NCBI GenBank assembly: GCA_947378425.1
Contig: CANCJV010000005.1
Location: 1 to 64,000 of the forward strand
Source: Synechococcaceae cyanobacterium
GTDB taxonomy: Bacteria; Cyanobacteriota; Cyanobacteriia; PCC-6307; Cyanobiaceae
Direction: 5' to 3'
DNA: 64,000 bases
The translations under genes and the position numbers were made by a program. The notes beneath the pieces were generated by a model. That model saw only the letters and a list, made by a program, of their open reading frames with translations. It did no database searches and was not told where the DNA came from. Of this stretch, positions 21,181 through 31,498 are shown piece after piece (positions within the stretch are counted from its first letter, which is position 1; every line of letters begins with the position of its first letter).

Positions 21181-21225
21181 CTTCTTTCTGATTGCTGCGT
21201 GAAGCAAGCAGCAATCAGAAAGAAG
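21181..21225. terminator. Strong bidirectional terminator hairpin
   Basis: An 18-bp perfect inverted repeat: CTTCTTTCTGATTGCTGC at 21181-21198 pairs with its complement at 21208-21225 across a 9-base loop. It sits between the convergent ends of cysC (+) and hsdR (-). The right arm overlaps the last codons and stop of hsdR. Confidence 0.85.
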
Positions 21226-23569
21226 CCTCATACAGGTGCCTCTGGAAGCCTGCAAAGAGCTCGCCGATCTGCTCCGGTTTGCCCAGATCGGCCACGGCAT
21301 CGGCAATGGAGTTCTGATAGCGGAGCCGCAGCAATGGCGTGAGCTTGTCCTGGGCCAATTCCTGCACGCCCGTGGTCACGTAGTGCTGCAGCACAAAATC
21401 CAGGAAGAGCTGCTGCTTGCTGGTGAACCTGGAATGGATGTAAAGGCGGGCATGCTCGGCGCGCTGCTGGCGGGGGATGGGTGGCAGCGCATAGGCCACA
21501 TGGGCCAGCACATCGAACAGATCGCTGTTTTCGGCATCGATGATGGCCTGCATCTCGGCCAGCTGATCAGCACCAAAGCCTTTTTCAGCCAGACCCTGCA
21601 GCAGCCTCGTGCGGGTGTCGGGTGCACTCCAGAGAGTCCGCAGCTCGGCCTCATCTTTGACAAATTCCGGCAACTGGCCATAGAGCAGTTCGATGAACTG
21701 CTGGGAACTCATCGGCGTGCCATCGGGATGCCAGAAGCTCGTGACCAGCATGTGCTGAATGGAGCGCTCCTTGCCGTCGCCGAGCTTGATGCGCAGCTTG
21801 GTGCGGCGCAGCGGATCACCCCCGCCATCATCGGTGTTGCCACCTTCGGCTCCGCGCTCGTCCGGGTCTGGGTCTGGCCTGGGCCGTGGCGGACGCCTGT
21901 CGATCGCTTCAAGTTCCTGGGGTTCCCCATCCCACTCGGGATCACTGAAGTGGTGGTGGGCCTGCACAAAGTCATAGATCGTGAAGTAGTCCTTGCCGTC
22001 GTAGAGGCGGGTGCCACGGCCGATGATCTGCTTGAACTCGATCATTGAGTTCACCGGCCTCAGCAGCACGATGTTGCGCACATTGCGGGCATCGACGCCG
22101 GTGGAGAGCTTCTGGGAGGTGGTGAGGATGGTGGGAATCGTCTTCTCGTTGTCCTGGAAAGCGCGCAGCCAGGTGTTACCCAGCTCGCCGTCGTCTGCCG
22201 TCACGCGGTGGCAGTAATTGGGATCGCTGTTGCCCTTGAGCTGGTTGATCAGGTCGCGGATGGCCAGGGCGTGCTCCTGGGTGGCACAGAACACCAGGGT
22301 TTTGTGGCGTGGATCAATCTGGCTGAGCAGAATCTCCACCCGCTGGCGTTCACGCCGCTCAATCTCGATGATTTTATTGAAATCCGACTCGCCATAGCGG
22401 CGGCCCTCCTGCACCTCACCCTCCACCACTGTGTCATCCGATGTGTAGATGTAGTCGTCGAGGGTGGTGGAGATCTGTTTGACGCGGAAGGGCGTCAGAA
22501 AGCCGTCGTTGATGCCATCCTTGAGGGAGTAGGTGAACACCGGCTCGCCGAAGTAGGCATAGGTGTCAATGTTGTCGTTGCGGCGCGGCGTGGCGGTGAG
22601 GCCGAGCTGCACGGCGGGGGCGAAGTAGTCGAGGATGCTGCGCCAGGTGGATTCGTTATTGGCGCCACCGCGGTGGCACTCATCGATCACAATGAAGTCG
22701 AAGAAATCAGCCGGGTACTGACCGAACCAGGGGGAGGGCTTACCCTCCAGCACCGGCCCGCTCATGAAGGTCTGGAAGATGGTGAGGAACACACTGGCGT
22801 TGGTGGGCACGCGGCCCTTTTTACGCAGGGCATCAGGCTCGAGGCGGGCCAGGGCGTTGTCTTCGAAGGCGGCGAAGCCGGTGAAGTCGTTGAAGGCCTG
22901 ATCGGCGAGGTTGTTGCGATCGGCCAGAAACAGAATGCGCGGCCGGCGGCTGGGCTGGCCTGAGAGGTTCCAGCGGGCCTGAAACAGTTTCCAGATGATC
23001 TGAAAGGCGATCGAGGTCTTGCCGGTGCCGGTGGCCAGGGTCAACAGGATGCGGTTGCGGCCGGTGGCGATCGCCTCCAGGGCGCGCGACACGGCGATGT
23101 CCTGGTAGAAGCGGATCTGCCAGCTGCCGCCCTTGTCGGCATAGGGAATGGCGGCAAAACGATCGCGCCAGGCGTTGTCTTCGGCGAAGGTGCGGGCCCA
23201 GAGCTCCTCTGGCGTGGGGAACGCTGCCACCGGCCCTTCCTCGCCGTTGCTCATGTCGATGGCATAAACGCCGAGCCCATTGCTGGCGTAGGTGAAGCGG
23301 ACTTGCAACTTGCCGGCGTAGTCCTTCGCCTGGGCCACACCTTCCGTGAGTGGCGCCGTGTCGGGCTTGGCCTCCACCACCGCCAGCTGGGTGTTGCGGT
23401 AGGTGAGCACGTAGTCGGCCGTGAGCGGCTTGCCGCGGCGGCCGCCGCCCTCGATCCGGCCCGGGGTGATCGAAAACTCGCGGCGAATGCGGCTGCCCTC
23501 CACCACGCCCCAACCGGCCGCCGTCAGCAGCGGATCGATCAGTTCGGCGCGGGTTTCGGCCTCGTTCAT
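21215..23569 (-). CDS. hsdR: Type I restriction enzyme, R (motor/nuclease) subunit
   Basis: EcoEI-like HsdR of 784 residues. The N-terminal nuclease region contains VVEAKPDTAPLTEGVAQAKD (the ExK part of the PD-ExK site). A superfamily 2 helicase follows: LATGTGKTSIAFQI (Walker A), IVIDECHRGG (DEAH-like box), GLTATPRRNDNIDTYAYFGE, and IIGRGTRLYDGKDYF (motif VI). The C-terminal part would contact HsdM/S. It lies 4 kb from hsdM and hsdS, on the same strand. The start overlaps the upstream HEPN gene by 4 bases, so its translation is coupled to toxin-antitoxin genes. All catalytic motifs look intact. Confidence 0.93.
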   Translation of the reverse strand: MNEAETRAELIDPLLTAAGWGVVEGSRIRREFSITPGRIEGGGRRGKPLTADYVLTYRNTQLAVVEAKPDTAPLTEGVAQAKDYAGKLQVRFTYASNGLGVYAIDMSNGEEGPVAAFPTPEELWARTFAEDNAWRDRFAAIPYADKGGSWQIRFYQDIAVSRALEAIATGRNRILLTLATGTGKTSIAFQIIWKLFQARWNLSGQPSRRPRILFLADRNNLADQAFNDFTGFAAFEDNALARLEPDALRKKGRVPTNASVFLTIFQTFMSGPVLEGKPSPWFGQYPADFFDFIVIDECHRGGANNESTWRSILDYFAPAVQLGLTATPRRNDNIDTYAYFGEPVFTYSLKDGINDGFLTPFRVKQISTTLDDYIYTSDDTVVEGEVQEGRRYGESDFNKIIEIERRERQRVEILLSQIDPRHKTLVFCATQEHALAIRDLINQLKGNSDPNYCHRVTADDGELGNTWLRAFQDNEKTIPTILTTSQKLSTGVDARNVRNIVLLRPVNSMIEFKQIIGRGTRLYDGKDYFTIYDFVQAHHHFSDPEWDGEPQELEAIDRRPPRPRPDPDPDERGAEGGNTDDGGGDPLRRTKLRIKLGDGKERSIQHMLVTSFWHPDGTPMSSQQFIELLYGQLPEFVKDEAELRTLWSAPDTRTRLLQGLAEKGFGADQLAEMQAIIDAENSDLFDVLAHVAYALPPIPRQQRAEHARLYIHSRFTSKQQLFLDFVLQHYVTTGVQELAQDKLTPLLRLRYQNSIADAVADLGKPEQIGELFAGFQRHLYEASF

Positions 23570-23949
23570 GGCAGGAGTGAGCTCACATGATCGAGAAGCT
23601 CAGAGCAGCGTTGGTTCCAAACGGTGCGGTCGAGGTGTTCCACATCCGGTTCTTCGTCGTAACGCCACACCACGGCATATAGGGTGAAGCGGCTGAGGCC
23701 AACGAAGGGCTCAACAGCGGCGCCCTGATCGCGCAGCATCTGAAACAGCAACCTGAGGTTGTGGCTGAAGGGTGGCTGTTCTGGCGTGAACACCAGCAGC
23801 CAGGCCTTCAGAGCCTTCTCGATCGCCTGCTGAAGATGAAATCCCCAGGTGGCTTCCTCAAAGAGCAAAGAATCCGCCATGGCCAACGCGGTACGCAGGT
23901 CACGGTGCGCGATGCGCAGAAAGCCGGTCGCCGTTTCAGCCGGGGCCAT
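23566..23949 (-). CDS. HEPN domain protein
   Basis: HEPN-type protein of 127 residues. The start at 23949 (MAPAETATGFLRIAHRD) is preferred; 17 residues of the longer frame are not protein-like. Helices read AMADSLLFEEATWGFHLQQA and IEKALKAWLLVFTPEQPPFS, then SHNLRLLFQML. This is the HEPN pattern with HLQQAxEKALKA of nucleotidyltransferase partners. A classical RX4-6H is not obvious, so it may be a substrate-binding or antitoxin-partner HEPN rather than an RNase. It overlaps the nucleotidyltransferase by 14 bases and hsdR by 4. Confidence 0.75.
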   Translation of the reverse strand: MAPAETATGFLRIAHRDLRTALAMADSLLFEEATWGFHLQQAIEKALKAWLLVFTPEQPPFSHNLRLLFQMLRDQGAAVEPFVGLSRFTLYAVVWRYDEEPDVEHLDRTVWNQRCSELLDHVSSLLP

Positions 23950-24319
23950 GCAGGGGCTCCGCAGGATCCAGACGGCGTCCATAGCGGAACGCCTCGGCAA
24001 TCACGTTCTGACGTCCATGGCGCCGCTCCTCCACCTCACTGGCGGAGAAAAGCAACAGTTCGATCGGCAGGCGGTGATAGGCCAACTTCCAGCCCAGGAC
24101 ATCCGTTTCCACAAACCGCGAATGGCTCGCCAACCATTCATCCGGCACGGTGACCAGTAGATCCAGGTCGGAATCGGGCCGTTCGGTGCCGCGGGCGCGG
24201 GAGCCGAACAGGCGCACCTGGGCGCCGGGAATGGCCGCCTGGATCTCGGCCGCGATCGTGCGCAACAGCGCTTCATCCACGACGTAGTGATAGCTGGAGG
24301 GGGTGGTAGACGCGCTCAT
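23936..24319 (-). CDS. MNT-type nucleotidyltransferase
   Basis: Small nucleotidyltransferase, about 127 residues. The start at 24319 (MSASTTPSSYHYV) avoids overlap with the upstream gene. The active-site signature GSRARGTERPDSDLDLLV gives GSx9-10DxD; a further acidic residue lies in LPIELLLFSASEVEE. It pairs with the following HEPN gene by a 14-base overlap, as in MntA/HepT-type modules. It is separated from the next upstream nucleotidyltransferase by only 4 bases. Confidence 0.82.
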   Translation of the reverse strand: MSASTTPSSYHYVVDEALLRTIAAEIQAAIPGAQVRLFGSRARGTERPDSDLDLLVTVPDEWLASHSRFVETDVLGWKLAYHRLPIELLLFSASEVEERRHGRQNVIAEAFRYGRRLDPAEPLHGPG

Positions 24320-24323
24320 GGGA

Positions 24324-24671
24324 TCAGTCTGGCGCATCCAGCCGGCGATACAGCTCCACGCCGGCACGTTCGATATGGGCGAGCAGCTCGGGGTGATCAA
24401 TCGAGGCCAGGCAAGAAAGATCGATCATCCAGGGCAGCAGCAGATCATCGAGATCGGCGTCGATGCGGGCCAGGGTGGCGGCGCTGATGGCGGGGCCGAT
24501 CAGGGTGAGGTCGATGTCGGAGGCGGGACGATGGCGGCCCAGAGCGCGGGAGCCGTAGAGGGTCGCGGACTCCACTTCGGGGTGGCCGGCCAGCACCTGT
24601 TGGATGGCCGCGATGGCCGCCTCCGGCAGGCCGGTGGCCAGGGCTGAAGTCAGCGGGGGACTGAGGGTCAT
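24324..24671 (-). CDS. Second MNT-type nucleotidyltransferase
   Basis: 115-residue nucleotidyltransferase with the signature YGSRALGRHRPASDIDLTLI. The next segment (LARIDADLDDLLLPWMIDLS) carries the third acidic residue. The N-terminal helix AAIAAIQQVLAGHPEVESAT is the usual lead-in. It forms a pair with the shortened HI0074-type HEPN gene upstream, overlapping it by 4 bases. It differs enough from the neighbouring nucleotidyltransferase that the two look like separately acquired modules rather than a recent duplication. Confidence 0.82.
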   Translation of the reverse strand: MTLSPPLTSALATGLPEAAIAAIQQVLAGHPEVESATLYGSRALGRHRPASDIDLTLIGPAISAATLARIDADLDDLLLPWMIDLSCLASIDHPELLAHIERAGVELYRRLDAPD

Positions 24672-24850
24672 GACGGCTCCTGGCTCAAGGCGGTGAAGCG
24701 ATCTCGCAGGGCGCCGAACAGGGGCGCGAAGTGTTCGATCACGTCGCGAGCGATCACCTGGGCCTGCTCGAGGTTGTAGGTGTGGGACGACTGATTGCGC
24801 CGCTCGAAGTTGTCGAACCGCTGGCGCCAGCGGCTGCCTGGATCGGCCAT
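24668..24850 (-). CDS. HI0074-family HEPN protein with apparent in-frame internal deletion
   Basis: HI0074-type nucleotidyltransferase partners are about 130-140 residues: an N-terminal RWKQRFxNFExAL helix, a long central helical region, and a C-terminal RNxxSHTYxxExA segment. Here only 60 residues remain: RWRQRFDNFER is joined directly to RNQSSHTYNLEQAQVIARDV and EHFAPLFGALRDRF. Both ends match the family, so about 70 central residues are missing in frame (junction near 24802). The RX4H motif (RNQSSH) is kept. The fold should be disrupted, so it is either a remnant or a miniaturised partner. It is the first gene of a cassette ending in hsdR. Confidence 0.7.
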   Translation of the reverse strand: MADPGSRWRQRFDNFERRNQSSHTYNLEQAQVIARDVIEHFAPLFGALRDRFTALSQEPS

Positions 24851-24919
24851 GGGGTCAGGTTAGGGAGCAAGGCAACCCGAGGCAGCTCACCCCGCGAGAG
24901 CGCTAGACCCCACTCTCAA

Positions 24920-24940
24920 CCGTACGATTCGCCGTATGAT
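24920..24940 (+). promoter_or_regulatory. Direct repeat at antitoxin start, possible operator
   Basis: CCGTACGAT (24920-24928) and CCGTATGAT (24932-24940) are two copies, one base different, with 12-base spacing. The second overlaps the antitoxin ATG. Phd-type antitoxins bind repeats at their own promoter, so this could be the autoregulatory site; that is inference. Confidence 0.3.
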
Positions 24941-25262
24941 GAAGCGAGTTGTAAAGAGCGCTTTGCAGGCCATCTCGGCAAACGACCTCAAAACCGGTGG
25001 CATCGGCGCTATCTCACGAGCGCTGGAGCACGAACGGGAGGTGGGACTGAGCGTGCGGGGCGAACTGCGGTTTGTGGTGATGGAAGCCGACGCCTATCAG
25101 CGCCTGCGGGAGTGCGAACTGGAAATTGCTCTGCAGGAAGCCCGCGCCGACCTCGCCGCCGGCCGCGTTGTTCACGAGTCGGTCGACGATCACCTCAAGC
25201 GTTTGGACGCCATGGCCATAGGCCCCGATGACGAGGTGCAAACTGCGCAGTCTCAGCCTTGA
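24936..25262 (+). CDS. Phd/YefM-like antitoxin
   Basis: Protein of 108 residues. The N-terminal half (ISANDLKTGGIGAISRALEH, then EREVGLSVRGELRFVVMEAD) has the Phd/YefM DNA-binding pattern, and the polar C-terminal helix ELEIALQEARADLAAGRVVH is the presumed toxin-binding tail. It overlaps the toxin gene by 4 bases. Two adjacent Met codons compete for the start (24936 and 24939); no Shine-Dalgarno sequence is visible, so translation may be leaderless. It is transcribed divergently from the HEPN/MNT/hsdR cassette, with 85 bases between starts. Confidence 0.78.
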   Translation: MMKRVVKSALQAISANDLKTGGIGAISRALEHEREVGLSVRGELRFVVMEADAYQRLRECELEIALQEARADLAAGRVVHESVDDHLKRLDAMAIGPDDEVQTAQSQP

Positions 25263-25540
25263 GTTGGTCGCTGGTGTTCACCGAGCGGTACAACCGCCGA
25301 GCCGCTCGTTTTCTGCGGCGCCATCCCGACAAGAAAGAGGCGTACCGCAAGACCCTGCTCTTGCTGGAAGCCAATCCGCACCATCCCTCACTGCGGCTGC
25401 ATGGACTACGAGGTCGCCTTCAGAGACTGCATTCCGTTTCTATCAATCTGAGCTATCGCATCACGCTTGAAGTTCTGATTGAAGGCCAAACGCTGATCCC
25501 GATCGACATCGGCTCCCACGATGTGGTTTACAGGGGCTGA
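25259..25540 (+). CDS. RelE/YafQ-like toxin
   Basis: RelE/ParE-superfamily protein of 93 residues starting at TTG (25259), overlapping the antitoxin stop by 4 bases. The pattern FTERYNRRAARFLRRHPDKK, then HPSLRLHGLRGRLQRLHSVS and NLSYRITLEVLIEGQTLIPI, is typical of the mRNA-interferase or gyrase-inhibitor fold. The end (DIGSHDVVYRG) is also family-like. Whether it is an RNase or a gyrase poison cannot be told from sequence. Confidence 0.82.
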   Translation: MSWSLVFTERYNRRAARFLRRHPDKKEAYRKTLLLLEANPHHPSLRLHGLRGRLQRLHSVSINLSYRITLEVLIEGQTLIPIDIGSHDVVYRG

Positions 25541-25543
25541 CTG

Positions 25544-25845
25544 TTACGGCGCGACATCAACCAGGCTGCTGAGAATGAAGGGGCGGCGGTTCTCCTTGAT
25601 CCCGTCGGCGGCCACCAGATCCACCTTGCGACCCGCCAGCACCAAGGCCGGATCCACCGCCAGCGCCTGGCGGGAGGCAGTGTCCACATCCAGCAGCACC
25701 GTGGAGGCGGCCAGCTGCTGGGCCAGGCGGGTCTTGCCGCAGGCTTTCGGGCCCTCGATCACCACCGCGCCGGCGGCGCCCAGGCAAGCGCGCAACTCGG
25801 CGTCGGCGATGCGGGGGCGGTAGGCAAGCCTTTACTGGCGGCCAT
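25544..25845 (-). pseudogene. Remnant of AAA ATPase (DUF4143-type) gene
   Basis: Reading leftward, the frame gives YRPRIADAELRACLGAAGAV and the Walker A GPKACGKTRLAQQL, then LLDVDTASRQALAVDPAL. This is the N-terminus of the ATP-binding DUF4143 family, normally about 400 residues. Only about 95 residues remain; after LVLAG the sequence departs from the family and stops. An ATG at 25845 (MAASKG) is in another frame, and a TAA lies just before LAYRPR, so a one-base frameshift near 25828-25834 also damages the 5' end. A 23-bp tandem repeat lies directly upstream. Confidence 0.7.
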
Positions 25846-25858
25846 GGCGGGGCGAGCA

Positions 25859-25973
25859 ATGCAGGAGATGCCGGGATCCTAATGCAGAAAAAACCGGCCT
25901 TCTGATGCAGATAAAATAGAGCTTCTGATGCAGGAAAAACTGGCCGGTCGATGCAGGAAAAACAGAGACGGCG
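25859..25973. repeat. Five tandem copies of a 23-bp repeat
   Basis: ATGCAG occurs at 25859, 25882, 25905, 25928 and 25951, exactly 23 bases apart. Units are degenerate. Copies 2, 4 and 5 share ATGCAG followed by an A-rich run, and copies 2 and 3 share the ending CTTCTG. The array begins 13 bases upstream of the ATG of the ATPase remnant, so it lies in that gene's promoter region. It lacks spacers and is not a CRISPR array. It may be a regulatory or protein-binding array. Confidence 0.85.
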
Positions 25974-26012
25974 GGAGTGGCTTTGGTTCGGGGCGAGGCA
26001 CGGCACCGAAGA

Positions 26013-26465
26013 TCACGCGCTCGCGATCACATGACCCTGAACTTGGGTAGGCATCAGAAACGCAAAATCCTTGTCCGTGGTCAACAGGACGGCCTGGGCG
26101 GCAACGGCAGTTGCTGCATCCCACAGGTCGTTCTTACCCATGGCTCGTGCCCCTTGTGAATGGGCGCGGGCATGGAGATCCAGCTGCACATAGGCATCAA
26201 TCACGGACGGATGGTTGATGTTCACGATCGTCAGCGAGCGGAAAGCCGTGTCCAGGGCCTGGCGTTTGGCTGCTCCCCAGTTCCCAGCTTCCGCCATTAC
26301 CCGAGCCTCAGCCAGGCTGACCACGCTCACCAGGGGCCGAGGCTGACAGTGAATCAAGTCAAAGGTGTCCTGAATCTGCTGACCCAGAGCGTTCCCCCGC
26401 ACCAGATGAAGAATCACGCTGGTGTCGAGGAGGTAAGGCCTGCCGGCACTTGCCGCCGCCGTCAT
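26013..26465 (-). CDS. vapC: PIN-domain toxin, VapC-like
   Basis: 150-residue PIN-domain RNase. The acidic residues of the active site are seen in YLLDTSVILHLVRGN (Asp), VVSLAEARVMAEAG (Glu), GKNDLWDAATAVAA (Asp) and LLTTDKDFAFL (Asp). The domain appears complete. It overlaps the preceding 316-residue gene by 4 bases, the arrangement expected for an antitoxin-toxin pair, although the partner is not a classical VapB. A region of no genes and the 23-bp repeats lie downstream. Confidence 0.88.
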   Translation of the reverse strand: MTAAASAGRPYLLDTSVILHLVRGNALGQQIQDTFDLIHCQPRPLVSVVSLAEARVMAEAGNWGAAKRQALDTAFRSLTIVNINHPSVIDAYVQLDLHARAHSQGARAMGKNDLWDAATAVAAQAVLLTTDKDFAFLMPTQVQGHVIASA

Positions 26466-27412
26466 CGAATGGCAGCGAGGGCCGTGATCAGTTCGTCGTC
26501 GGTTTCATCACCGGGCCAGGTGCCGAAAAAGGTGGCGACGCCGGATCCCGGCCCTTGAACAGCCGGCGTGAAGACGGGCATGGAGCCCCACGCTCTCGGC
26601 GCTTCGCTGAACAACTCATCGTCCCCATGGGCCGGTTGGATCTGGCTGATGCCGATCTGTTGAATGCGGCCTGATGGGCGGAACTCAGCGACGCCAGCCA
26701 CCACGACCCGCTGACCAAAAAGAGCCCTCAGGTCTTCCATGGTGACGCTGGCTGGCAGCCGGGCCTGGATCTTTTCGCCGTCATCACTGAGCAGGGTGAC
26801 GGAAGGCCTGGTGGAGGAGATGGTGTCGAACTTGCCGGTGAAGCGGATGGTCTGGGGGAGAGGCGTCTGGAGCACCAACTCCTCCAGCAAGGGAATGTCG
26901 GAGGCGTTCAAGGCCACGGTTGGCCCCGCTGCATCCAGGGGCCCAAGGCTGATGCCAGTGAAGGCTCCGGTGGGCACTCGGGCGAAGCGAAGGCACCCTT
27001 CCAACAGAGGCCGATCAGCCCTCAGGTTTGGACGATCCCCCTGCTGAATCTCCCGCAGCACGGCGGCAAACAGATCAAGGGCTGTGCTGCCCGGCGGTGC
27101 CAGGGGCTCCTCCTGCTCCAACAGGCTGATCTGCCCTGTACCGCCAAAGACTTCAGGAGCGGCCTCTTCCAGCGTGGGCGCCTCCAGCTCCAGCACAGCA
27201 GAGCCGGCGTGCAAACCCGTGATCATCTGGCTGGTGCAGGCCTCCAACCATCGGGGCCTTGGACCCGGCGGATTGCTGATGCCCTCCACCTGAAAGCGCA
27301 GCGCCAGACTTGAACCCTCCTTGAGCGCAGCCAGCAACTCAGCCAACTGATCGCCGCTGACACGGAGCTGCGCACCGTCTCCTCCTACCAGTACCAGCCG
27401 ATGTCGCTTCAA
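26462..27412 (-). CDS. 316-residue partner of PIN toxin, OB-fold-like
   Basis: Not a known family to me. Residues 1-110 are acidic and mixed. Around residues 190-265 the sequence reads IRFTGKFDTISSTRPSVTLL, then SDDGEKIQARLPASV, FGQRVVVAGVAEFRPSGRIQ and IGISQIQPA. That alternation of strands with GxAxFxPSG resembles an OB-fold nucleic-acid-binding domain (inference). The last residues, FFGTWPGDETDDELITALAA, look like the short C-terminal tail by which VapB-type antitoxins clasp a PIN toxin. The 4-base overlap with vapC supports a toxin-antitoxin pair with an unusually large antitoxin. Confidence 0.6.
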   Translation of the reverse strand: MKRHRLVLVGGDGAQLRVSGDQLAELLAALKEGSSLALRFQVEGISNPPGPRPRWLEACTSQMITGLHAGSAVLELEAPTLEEAAPEVFGGTGQISLLEQEEPLAPPGSTALDLFAAVLREIQQGDRPNLRADRPLLEGCLRFARVPTGAFTGISLGPLDAAGPTVALNASDIPLLEELVLQTPLPQTIRFTGKFDTISSTRPSVTLLSDDGEKIQARLPASVTMEDLRALFGQRVVVAGVAEFRPSGRIQQIGISQIQPAHGDDELFSEAPRAWGSMPVFTPAVQGPGSGVATFFGTWPGDETDDELITALAAIR

Positions 27413-27546
27413 GCTGAAGGCCCGACGTCCAACGATTGGGTTTCACCGTAGGTCGCTGGGGGCGCATCGGCGTCCGTGGAATCACAGATCCCAGCCTGGC
27501 TTGCCGCCTCGACCTGACCGCCCACAGTGGGGCCGCTCGCCACGGC

Positions 27547-28767
27547 TCAGAGCTCGCCGTTGAACGCCTGGTGCAGGAGGGACTTCTTCAGTTCCTCCAG
27601 GGCGGCGAGTTTGCGTTCGTAGAGGCGGGTGAGGTGTTGGGTTTCGACTGACAGCTCCTGAAGGGTTGCAACGATCACCTGTTGCGTCTCTATAGGGGGC
27701 GCCGTGATGGGGAGCGTCTTTACCGCTCCGTTACTGATCTTCTTCATTGTCGGATTGGCTCCTTGCGCCCTTCCCATAATTTCCATCCTCAATGCAGGAG
27801 TGCGCATTTGGTAGTAAAGGAACTCAGTACTCATGCGATCCGGCATGGGATTCATGCGCATGATGAGGTCGGGATAAATAGTCGGCTGCTCAATGTCGGC
27901 GGCAATTGCAACATGTCCTACCAACTCTGGCGTGTTGCTGCGCGTGACGAGAAAGTCGCCATTTTTAACCCAGTAGCTCCTATTCGGATCAGTCGGCGCC
28001 GAAGTATATTTAATTTTGTCAGATCGGAAGCGAAATCCAGTAACAGATGAAAGTGTGAGGACAGGTGTCCCCGAATCTGCGTGGTTGGCCGCTGGCGGTG
28101 ACCATCCATTCTGAGGTTGTGTAGCAAGGACTATTTCGAGCGTCGTCTCTACCCACTCCTCCCCCCGCTGACTGAAGACGGCTTGAAGGTGACTCTCAAA
28201 GATCGCGCGGGCGTTCTGGAGGTTCCGTTCGGCGTTGGCTTTGGCGGTAGCGAGGCCCGCAAACGCTTCGTCGAGCAGGGCGACGATTCGAAGCTGTTCG
28301 GGGAGTGGGGGGACAGGAACAGGAATTTCGCGAAGACTGCCTTGATTAAGCTTCGGGACAGTCAAGCCTGAAACAAACTCGTTTAGGTCAGAGTGGTTGA
28401 GGTGGTAGATGAGCCAGTTATCGAGGATCATGCTCCGATGCGGCCTCAATACATGGGCGTGATTGTTGACCCAAATCTTTCCTTCAACTGCGAAGGCGGT
28501 CTTCTCGCCTGATGCCCACTTGGCGCCATCTTCACCGACAAGCACCAGCGGTTCGTCAAACAAATATCCGGCGACTCTGTCGAGCACTCCGGTCGCACCG
28601 TAGTAGGGATACTCTCCAGCCTCGCGGTCTCGTTTGGTGATTGGCTTGCGCTTGTGGTCGAGCACATCGCAAAGCTCGCCAAGGGACATGATTTCCCACC
28701 CTTCCTTCATACCAACGCCCCGATCCGCCTCAGCACTTCCGCAGTCTCGGTCCTCAATGACGTTCAT
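27547..28767 (-). CDS. hsdS: Type I restriction-modification specificity subunit
   Basis: HsdS of 406 residues with two target-recognition domains. The first ends in KLNQGSLREIPVPVPPLPEQ followed by the coiled spacer LRIVALLDEAFAGLATAKAN. The second ends in TMKKISNGAVKTLPITAPPI followed by the second spacer ETQQVIVATLQELSVETQHL. The first ATG overlaps the KilA-N gene by 4 bases; Met20 (28710, MKEGWEIMSLGEL) is a plausible alternative start. The recognition sequence cannot be deduced. The sequence is clearly less GC-rich than the backbone, as usual for HsdS. Confidence 0.93.
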   Translation of the reverse strand: MNVIEDRDCGSAEADRGVGMKEGWEIMSLGELCDVLDHKRKPITKRDREAGEYPYYGATGVLDRVAGYLFDEPLVLVGEDGAKWASGEKTAFAVEGKIWVNNHAHVLRPHRSMILDNWLIYHLNHSDLNEFVSGLTVPKLNQGSLREIPVPVPPLPEQLRIVALLDEAFAGLATAKANAERNLQNARAIFESHLQAVFSQRGEEWVETTLEIVLATQPQNGWSPPAANHADSGTPVLTLSSVTGFRFRSDKIKYTSAPTDPNRSYWVKNGDFLVTRSNTPELVGHVAIAADIEQPTIYPDLIMRMNPMPDRMSTEFLYYQMRTPALRMEIMGRAQGANPTMKKISNGAVKTLPITAPPIETQQVIVATLQELSVETQHLTRLYERKLAALEELKKSLLHQAFNGEL

Positions 28768-29606
28768 TTTCCCTCCTTCTCCTCCGGCAATTGGGGTGTG
28801 CGTTCATCGGCCGTCAGCAGTTTCATCTGCCCGATGGCAATCTGGTTGAGGCGGGTGAGACGTTCGGATTGAGGGAGAGCTTGGCCGATGAACAGGGCGT
28901 TGAGATTTTCGAGGTTGGAGAGGCAAACGAGCTGGGCGCCGGTGGCTTGGTCGCGAATGTTGCCCTTTTCGCCAGGGTTTTGGCTGCGCCATTGGGCGGC
29001 AGTCTGGCCGAAGAGGGCCATGTTCAACAGATCGGCCTCGCTGGCATAGACAAAGCTGATCTGATCCTTACTCAGCTGGGTGGGAATCAGATGAGTCTGG
29101 ATGGCGTCGGTGTGGATGCGATAGTTGATCTTGGCAAGGTTGCGGCGAATATCCCAACCGAGAGTCTGGCGCTCACTGTCTTTGAGGCGCTGGAACTCTT
29201 TGATCAGGTAGAGCTTGAACTCCACCGAAATCCAGGCGGCGAATTCAAAGGCGATATCGGCGTGGGCATAGGTGCCGCCATAGCGGCCGGTTTTCGACTG
29301 AATGCCGATGGCGCCGGTGCGCTCGATCCATTGCTTCGGGGTCAGCGTGAAGCTGTTCAGACCGGCTTGCATTTTAATCCCGTCGAATTCGACGGGATTA
29401 AAACCGGAGTTGTTGATCTGTTCCCACAGCCCCAGAAATTCAACCGTGTTGCGGTTGCGCAGCCAGTTCCGAATCAGATCGTCAGTGGTGGCCTTGCCCT
29501 TGTAGCGGGCGATGTCCGTCAGGCAGATGTAATCCTGGCTGTTGATCGCGACGATGCGGACTTGGCTGGAGAGCACCTCGATGTTTTTCGTCGCAGGCTG
29601 ACTCAT
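28764..29606 (-). CDS. KilA-N domain protein within the hsd operon
   Basis: 280-residue protein with an N-terminal KilA-N domain (DYICLTDIARYKGKATTDDL, IRNWLRNRNTVEFLGLWEQI, GRYGGTYAHADIAFEFAAWI, SVEFKLYLIKEFQRL). The C-terminal half contains QTHLIPTQLSKDQISFVYAS and QATGAQLVCLSNLENLNALF. KilA-N domains bind DNA and occur in phages and mobile elements; a gene of this type between hsdM and hsdS is a recurrent arrangement in type I systems. It overlaps both neighbours by 4 bases. Its function may be regulation or recruitment, which is inference. Confidence 0.85.
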   Translation of the reverse strand: MSQPATKNIEVLSSQVRIVAINSQDYICLTDIARYKGKATTDDLIRNWLRNRNTVEFLGLWEQINNSGFNPVEFDGIKMQAGLNSFTLTPKQWIERTGAIGIQSKTGRYGGTYAHADIAFEFAAWISVEFKLYLIKEFQRLKDSERQTLGWDIRRNLAKINYRIHTDAIQTHLIPTQLSKDQISFVYASEADLLNMALFGQTAAQWRSQNPGEKGNIRDQATGAQLVCLSNLENLNALFIGQALPQSERLTRLNQIAIGQMKLLTADERTPQLPEEKEGK

Positions 29607-31498
29607 CCCAGAAGCCCCCGGATCCTCGCCAACACCTCAGCACTCTCCACATCCAGCGTCGCAATCTCCGCCATGATCTCCTGCGGGCTGCGGTGTGCGA
29701 TTTCATCGCCGCCGTTGGGGTTCTTCACCGAGAGATCAAACGTCTCCCGATCGATCGCCTCCACATCCACACTCCAACTCTTGGGCGAGTCAGCAAAAGT
29801 CTTCTGCAGCTCCACGAACTCCGCCAGATCCCGATCATTGAGCGGATTGGTTTTGCCCAGGTTGCGGCCGGGATCGAGCTGGTAGAACCACACGTTGCGG
29901 GTGGGCGCGCCCTTCTCGAAAAACAAGACCACCGTTTTCACCCCCGCCCCCTGGAAGGTGCCGCCGGGGCAGTCGAGCACAGTGTGAAGATTGCACTCCT
30001 GCAGCAGCTTCTGGCGCAGGGCCACCGAGGCGTTATCGGTATTCGATAAAAACGTGTTTTTGATCACCACGCCGGCGCGGCCGCCGGCCCGCAGCAGGCG
30101 GATGAAGTGCTGCAGAAACAAAAACGCAGTTTCTCCGGTGCGGATCTCGAAGTTCTGCTGCACCTCCTTGCGTTCGCTGCCGCCGAAGGGGGGATTGGCC
30201 AGGATCACATCAAAGCGATCCTTCTCCTGCACATCGCTGAGGTTTTCAGTGAGGGTGTTGGCGTGGCTGATCTTGGGCGCCTCAATGCCGTGCAGGATCA
30301 TGTTCATGATCGCGATCACATAGGCGAGGCTCTTTTTCTCCTTGCCGGTGAAGGTGCGGTTTTGCAGGGTGTCGAGATCGTCGGTGCTGAGTTCAGCGCC
30401 GCTGGCTCCACCCTGGCGCATGTACTCAAACGCTTCGCACAGGAAGCCCGCTGAGCCCACCGCTGGGTCGTAGACCGTTTCACCAATCTGCGGAGCCACC
30501 ACCTGCACGATGGCGCGAATCAAGGGCCGGGGCGTGTAGTACTCACCGCCGTTGCGGCCGGCGTTGCCCATGCGCTTGATCTTTTCCTCATAGAGCATCG
30601 AGAGCTCATGCTTCTCGGCCTGGGAGCGGAAGCGCAGGCCATCGATCACATCGATGATTTCGCGCAGGTTGTAGCCGCTGCTGATCTTGTTGTTGAGTTC
30701 ACCAAAGATCTCGCCGATCTTGTATTCAATAGTGTTTCTCTTGTCATCTGAACTCCCCTTGAATCCCTTCAGATAGGGGAAGAGCTTATTGTTGACAAAA
30801 TCCAGCAGGTCGTCACCAAGAAGGGCATCCTTTGCTGGCTGGCCGGTGGCGTCCTTTGGCGCCGCCCAGCTGTTCCAGCGGTAGGGCTCCTCCAGGATGG
30901 GCGTGGTGCTGCGGCCCTCCAGGGCGGCCACGGCGGCCTTGTCGTCTTCGAGCCCGTCGAGGTATTTGAGGAACAGCAGCCAGGAGGTCTGCTCGGTGTA
31001 ATCGAGCTCGGTGCCGCAGCCGGCCTCCTTGCGCAGGCAGTCGTCGATGGCGCGGAAGGCCTGATCAAAGCTGCTGGCGGTGGAGCTGCTGGCCGTGGCG
31101 CGGCCGGAGCCCCGAGCAGCCCGCGGGCGGCGGGCGGCGCGTTCGCCATCAGGCCCCATGGCTGCCGAGGCGCCCTCGCCCACGGATCCGCCTTCGCCAT
31201 CGGTGAGGGCGACGGACCCGCCGCGACCGCGGCCGGGCACGATCAGGCCGCGCCCGAGCAGCTGGGCTTTGACGGCGTCGTAGCTGGCCTCGTCCCACTC
31301 GAGCACGTCGCGCAAGCGGCCGTTGCCGGCCGAACCGCCCAGGGCCGCCAGGGCGCCAAGAAACTCGTCCTGCAGGTCATCGCCGGGGTCGTCCTGGGGC
31401 GACTCTTCAGGGCCGGCGTCGCGCAGGGGGCTCTCGGCGGCGAAGGTCAACGGGGCGGGGAGCTTTCGCCAAAGAATAGCCAGCGGGGTTGGCGCCAA
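29603..31498 (-). CDS. hsdM: Type I restriction-modification methyltransferase subunit
   Basis: N6-adenine methyltransferase, 631 residues. The HsdM N-terminal helical domain begins at SSFDQAFRAIDDCLRKEAGC, and the methylase has GEYYTPRPLIRAIVQVVAP, DPAVGSAGFLCEAFEYM (SAM site) and the catalytic motif ILANPPFGGSERKE. An extra N-terminal region of about 140 residues includes DEFLGALAALGGSAGNGRLR and LLGRGLIVPGRGRGGSVALT, which resembles a winged-helix DNA-binding unit, followed by an Arg/Ala/Ser-rich linker. The stop overlaps the KilA-N start by 4 bases. This gene heads the leftward operon. Confidence 0.93.
   Translation of the reverse strand: MAPTPLAILWRKLPAPLTFAAESPLRDAGPEESPQDDPGDDLQDEFLGALAALGGSAGNGRLRDVLEWDEASYDAVKAQLLGRGLIVPGRGRGGSVALTDGEGGSVGEGASAAMGPDGERAARRPRAARGSGRATASSSTASSFDQAFRAIDDCLRKEAGCGTELDYTEQTSWLLFLKYLDGLEDDKAAVAALEGRSTTPILEEPYRWNSWAAPKDATGQPAKDALLGDDLLDFVNNKLFPYLKGFKGSSDDKRNTIEYKIGEIFGELNNKISSGYNLREIIDVIDGLRFRSQAEKHELSMLYEEKIKRMGNAGRNGGEYYTPRPLIRAIVQVVAPQIGETVYDPAVGSAGFLCEAFEYMRQGGASGAELSTDDLDTLQNRTFTGKEKKSLAYVIAIMNMILHGIEAPKISHANTLTENLSDVQEKDRFDVILANPPFGGSERKEVQQNFEIRTGETAFLFLQHFIRLLRAGGRAGVVIKNTFLSNTDNASVALRQKLLQECNLHTVLDCPGGTFQGAGVKTVVLFFEKGAPTRNVWFYQLDPGRNLGKTNPLNDRDLAEFVELQKTFADSPKSWSVDVEAIDRETFDLSVKNPNGGDEIAHRSPQEIMAEIATLDVESAEVLARIRGLLG

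Follow-up and report, generated by a model that had tools for sequence, protein, structure and literature searches.

The ORF at positions 24668-24850 of the window (the whole stretch of 64,000 nucleotides analysed, contig CANCJV010000005.1 of a freshwater Synechococcaceae cyanobacterium, genome G000) is very probably a toxin gene that has been inactivated, in a type VII (HEPN-MNT) toxin-antitoxin module whose MNT motifs are intact; both the loss of activity and the lack of function are what we infer. Repeated loss of HEPN is common in the genus, and 24668-24850 is a case of ordinary gene decay. The elements of the locus are:

24668-24850, minus strand: 60-codon remnant of a gene for a HEPN toxin of the PF08780/HI0074 type.
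24668-24671, minus strand: ATGA stop/start overlap of the HEPN remnant and the MNT gene, retained from the full-length arrangement.
24324-24671, minus strand: gene for the MNT (MntA-like minimal nucleotidyltransferase) antitoxin, 115 amino acids, full length, with GSX10DXD intact.
24799-24800, minus strand: deletion junction, at which 240 bp of the syntenic gene of a related genome (G014, L036:3908-4147) are absent.

The minus-strand ORF (24850-24668) translates as MADPGSRWRQRFDNFERRNQSSHTYNLEQAQVIARDVIEHFAPLFGALRDRFTALSQEPS. In Pfam it matches PF08780 alone, along the last third of the profile (positions 84-124 of 126). The 30.5 bits fall just below the curated cut-off of 31.8, and the domain is not matched as a whole. 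TIGR01987 gave a score of 18, far below its cut-off of 55.8. The motif RX4HXY persists in the short form (RNQSSHTY, residues 18-25, equivalent to R98, H103, and Y105), in agreement with the RX4H reported in a preliminary description of this DNA. That description had also found the start region and the 4-base overlap intact, and the sequence bears this out: the MNT ORF (24671-24324) overlaps the stop of the remnant by the four bases ATGA, and start codon and frame are preserved with no stop gained over 60 codons, which counts against decay. The adjoining MNT carries the motif GSX10DXD as GSRALGRHRPASDID. Its polymerase-beta-like fold was recognised by PF18765 (48 bits, cut-off 26.9), and the NCBIfam equivalog NF047752 scored 39.6 bits, below its cut-off of 60.

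In the close relative G014 (CAIJRN010000026.1, locus L036), the locus is syntenic and the DNA about 93-95% identical (93% over window positions 22000-24799), and the HEPN gene has the normal full length of 140 codons. The alignment of the two genomes contains a gap of exactly 240 bp, or 80 codons, corresponding to residues 18-97, such that R17 abuts R98 and the remnant consists of residues 1-17 joined directly to residues 98-140 of the 140-residue form. The remnant thus derives from a HEPN gene that once stood here at full length, the syntenic G014 gene being 240 bp longer. Alignment with full-length relatives confirmed the fusion of an N-terminal block to a distant C-terminal block and a clean loss of the part in between; the loss of the central region had been correctly recognised, and only its size, put at 70 residues, needs correction to 80 codons. 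This central region is present in most orthologues, so that it is not absent throughout the subfamily.

The window genome is a draft assembly of 84 contigs, and collapse or misassembly of a full-length gene could in principle produce such a gap. We consider the probability of this practically negligible. The missing 240 bp were not found elsewhere in the G000 assembly, where the best match (80%) is a full-length HEPN paralogue on contig C29 that has its own MNT. No microhomology or repeat is visible at the breakpoint against extant full-length copies. Finally, the identical junction occurs in G007 (JAPLID010000064.1, a Lake Pavin MAG), a genome assembled independently, which makes an assembly artefact very unlikely.

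What the deletion removes was assessed on an AlphaFold2 model of the full-length G014 protein (mean pLDDT 92), in which helices span residues 4-31, 36-63, 71-81, 88-101, and 107-137. Set against these boundaries, residues 18-97 take up helix 1 from its middle onward (its C-terminal half), helices 2 and 3 entirely, and helix 4 for the most part. The G014 protein aligns with the HEPN toxin of Legionella pneumophila, its closest characterised homologue and nearest solved structure, without gaps over residues 2-136 (E 9e-45), and the Legionella residue numbering therefore carries over. In the Legionella protein, Mg2+ is bound by Q44 and E47 of helix 2, both of which the RNase activity and the toxicity require. 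Helix 2 also supplies most of the dimer interface, and MNT docks on alpha3/alpha4, with R73 as the key residue (PMC11586414). The AMP acceptor is Y105, and the substitutions R98A and H103A have a negligible effect (PMC11586414). Neither Q44 nor E47 varies among the 18 full-length relatives aligned, and this helix-2 metal site is gone from the remnant. By homology, the RNase active site, the main dimer helix, and the face that binds MNT would all lie within the deleted stretch. The residues that the short form keeps (R98, H103, and Y105 of the AMP-acceptor loop) include none of those shown to matter for activity. Retention of RX4H is thus no sign of activity, because R98A and H103A are negligible in Legionella and the lost Q44 and E47 make up the active site.

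We propose that one internal deletion of 240 bp cut out this helical stretch (residues 18-97). Judged by homology to the Legionella HEPN, this would have cost the protein its Mg2+-dependent RNase site, the dimer interface on helix 2, and the surface on which MNT docks. The 60-residue product, if made, would probably be neither a nuclease nor a normal partner of MNT. Because the deletion preserved the frame and the ATGA overlap, the MNT may still be translated by coupling. The loss of a toxin is harmless to the cell, and the antitoxin of such a pair cannot go first. Decay of the module would have started with the toxin, HEPN being inactivated and MNT outlasting it.

An alternative is that the short form is a functional miniature, retaining the Tyr105 acceptor loop together with helix 5 and acting as a substrate of AMPylation, a decoy, or a regulator of the MNT or of the full-length paralogue on C29. 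The intact frame, start, and overlap, the retained RX4HXY with its acceptor tyrosine, and the identical junction in a second species would agree with this, but the dimer interface and the MNT-docking helices are absent and AlphaFold2 predicts only two helices for the 60 residues, with a pTM of only 0.43. The relatives also speak against it: the short form in G007 has no start codon and its MNT is frameshifted, and other HEPN deletions in the genus fall at different points, with Tyr105 replaced by Asp in G013, so that no particular miniature is conserved. We regard such a function as very unlikely.

The second copy of the junction bears on both readings. The preliminary description had proposed looking for the same short form in related strains, and the G007 junction is indeed identical, in a second species, although there about 64 nt of the HEPN gene, the start codon among them, are also absent relative to G014 and the MNT has a 44-nt frameshifting deletion that eliminates the DxD residues. 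The HEPN-MNT of G007 is plainly a pseudogene pair. On the other hand, an allele common to two species is no accident of one strain, which counts against simple decay. That the 60-residue form common to the two species is a working mini-HEPN, with its AMP-acceptor loop acting as a decoy substrate or regulator of the MNT, nevertheless appears most improbable. Of the two alternatives originally offered for the ORF, inactivation of the toxin by an in-frame deletion that leaves the MNT an orphan is well supported by the G014 comparison, the loss of Q44 and E47, and the decay in G007, whereas for a miniature version with altered function we found no positive evidence.

G000 and G007 are identical over 84 nt spanning the junction, a stretch that is generally conserved. 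Simple shared ancestry of the junction was rejected, since a tree of the flanks groups G000 with the full-length G014 (97% UFBoot) and places G007 outside, though the deletion is in G000 and G007 and not in G014. The deletion allele was therefore either passed by recombination or the full length was restored in G014. Distances in the HEPN middle place G014 closer to V. limneticus and those in the MNT place it closer to G034, which points to mosaicism in this region. A single deletion followed by recombination, in which either the short allele was transferred or G014 regained the full length, explains this better than the same deletion arising twice. The retained HEPN codons have a low dN/dS (0.19-0.46), which is no proof of current selection because most of the differences are older than the deletion or follow recombination. 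Pairwise dN/dS was accordingly discarded as a measure of selection on the short form, as only a few changes are younger than the deletion and the tracts are mixed by recombination.

A survey of the genus, anchored on the MNT side to avoid bias, covered 26 loci, at which HEPN was full length in 15, had an in-frame deletion in four, was frameshifted in three, and was lacking in four. The affected loci are:

In-frame internal HEPN deletions: G000, G007, G029, and G013.
Frameshifted HEPN: G022, G025, and G021.
No HEPN found within 1.2 kb upstream of MNT: G017, G039, G005, and G018.

Two further cases lie outside the 26-locus set. L056 has another in-frame HEPN deletion and came from a protein search, which is biased toward open frames. 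In G099 (L035:4201-5680), HEPN is split by about 1.5 kb containing two ORFs, one TnpB-like and one small and ribbon-helix-helix-like, both identified by eye. With shared junctions counted once, there are about four in-frame and three frameshifting deletion events, plus one IS insertion. Given a chance of 1/3 that a deletion leaves the frame open, at least four in-frame events of seven are expected with p about 0.17, in a rough count of few events that includes L056. A clean in-frame loss had been called unusual for random decay, and these numbers do not uphold that view, four against three being compatible with the 1/3 chance. An in-frame bias as evidence of function was likewise rejected (4/7, p about 0.17, with L056 biased toward open frames).

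The HEPN of G013 (L040:3883-4257) has 125 codons and a 15-codon in-frame deletion, and its acceptor Tyr105 is changed to Asp (SHTDN). G025 (L080) and G022 (L088), two species, have nearly the same frameshifting HEPN deletion, from residue 55 to 85, suggesting that broken alleles spread by descent or recombination.

The MNT retains GSX10DXD in most loci of the genus in which HEPN is broken or missing. Its dN/dS to the nearest intact relative is 0.14-0.48 at loci with broken HEPN and 0.06-0.47 at intact loci. Relaxation of the MNT after loss of the toxin was rejected because these ranges overlap. The values are compatible with either ongoing selection on orphan MNTs or recent loss of the toxin. 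Selection could also keep the in-frame remnant as a leader ORF whose translation is coupled to that of an MNT itself still selected, for example for neutralising HEPN paralogues, a reading that is compatible with a dead toxin. The intact ATGA overlap, the similar dN/dS of broken and intact loci together with the kept catalytic motif, and the presence of two further HEPN-MNT loci of the same family in the G000 genome are in line with this. However, loci with frameshifted HEPN (G022, G025, and G021) and one lacking HEPN (G017) also keep the MNT motif, which argues that an in-frame remnant is not needed, the excess of in-frame events is not significant, and the full-length MNT comparison between G000 and G014 gives a high dN/dS of 0.68 (9 N, 5 S). 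We therefore consider selection for a leader unlikely, and inactivation of the toxin remains the preferred reading.

The HepT toxin of Shewanella oneidensis HepT-MntA presumably belongs to a different HEPN subfamily from the window gene. That system follows the same type VII logic, its MNT adenylylating the HEPN tyrosine of RX4HXY, and has an intact toxin, unlike the window locus (PMC7641770, PMC4621449). The HEPN-MNT type VII system of Legionella pneumophila (PDB 8xdj, 8xeh, 8xem, and 8yuf; PMC11586414) has the same RX4HXY loop and the same pairing with a GSX10DXD MNT, whereas in the window gene the loss of residues 18-97 has taken away Q44/E47 along with the dimer helix and the region where MNT docks. 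In HI0074/HI0073 of Haemophilus influenzae (PDB 1jog; TIGR01987, PF08780), a HEPN gene of the same Pfam family is coupled to an MNT gene; compared with HI0074, the window gene retains only PF08780 profile positions 84-124. A literature search, judged by titles and abstracts, brought up no recognisable paper on orphan MNTs or on mini-HEPN forms. Our results add a documented case in which, within one genus, the toxin of a HEPN-MNT pair has disappeared repeatedly and the antitoxin has remained, and a conserved RX4H alone should not serve to call HEPN genes active. If the orphan MNTs are under selection, they would be candidates to test as neutralisers of related HEPN toxins.

In the window, a second HEPN-MNT pair of another subfamily follows directly after the first in the order MNT-HEPN, so that the two MNT genes adjoin (PF01909 MNT within 23936-24400, PF05168 HEPN at 23566-24000). 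The toxin-antitoxin cluster lies within a type I restriction-modification locus (21215-31498) with the following genes:

29603-31498: hsdM.
28764-29606: PDC-S22-like gene.
27547-28767: hsdS, followed by the toxin-antitoxin cluster.
21215-23569: hsdR, beyond the cluster.

On the plus strand, a Phd/YafQ-like pair with weak scores lies upstream of the HEPN remnant (24936-25540), and related DNA is found upstream in G007 and G099. Positions 25544-25965 contain a fragment that by eye resembles an ATPase N-terminus, followed by repeated GATGCAG(A/G)AAAA-like strings, and DNA similar to this stretch is present at related loci of several relatives.
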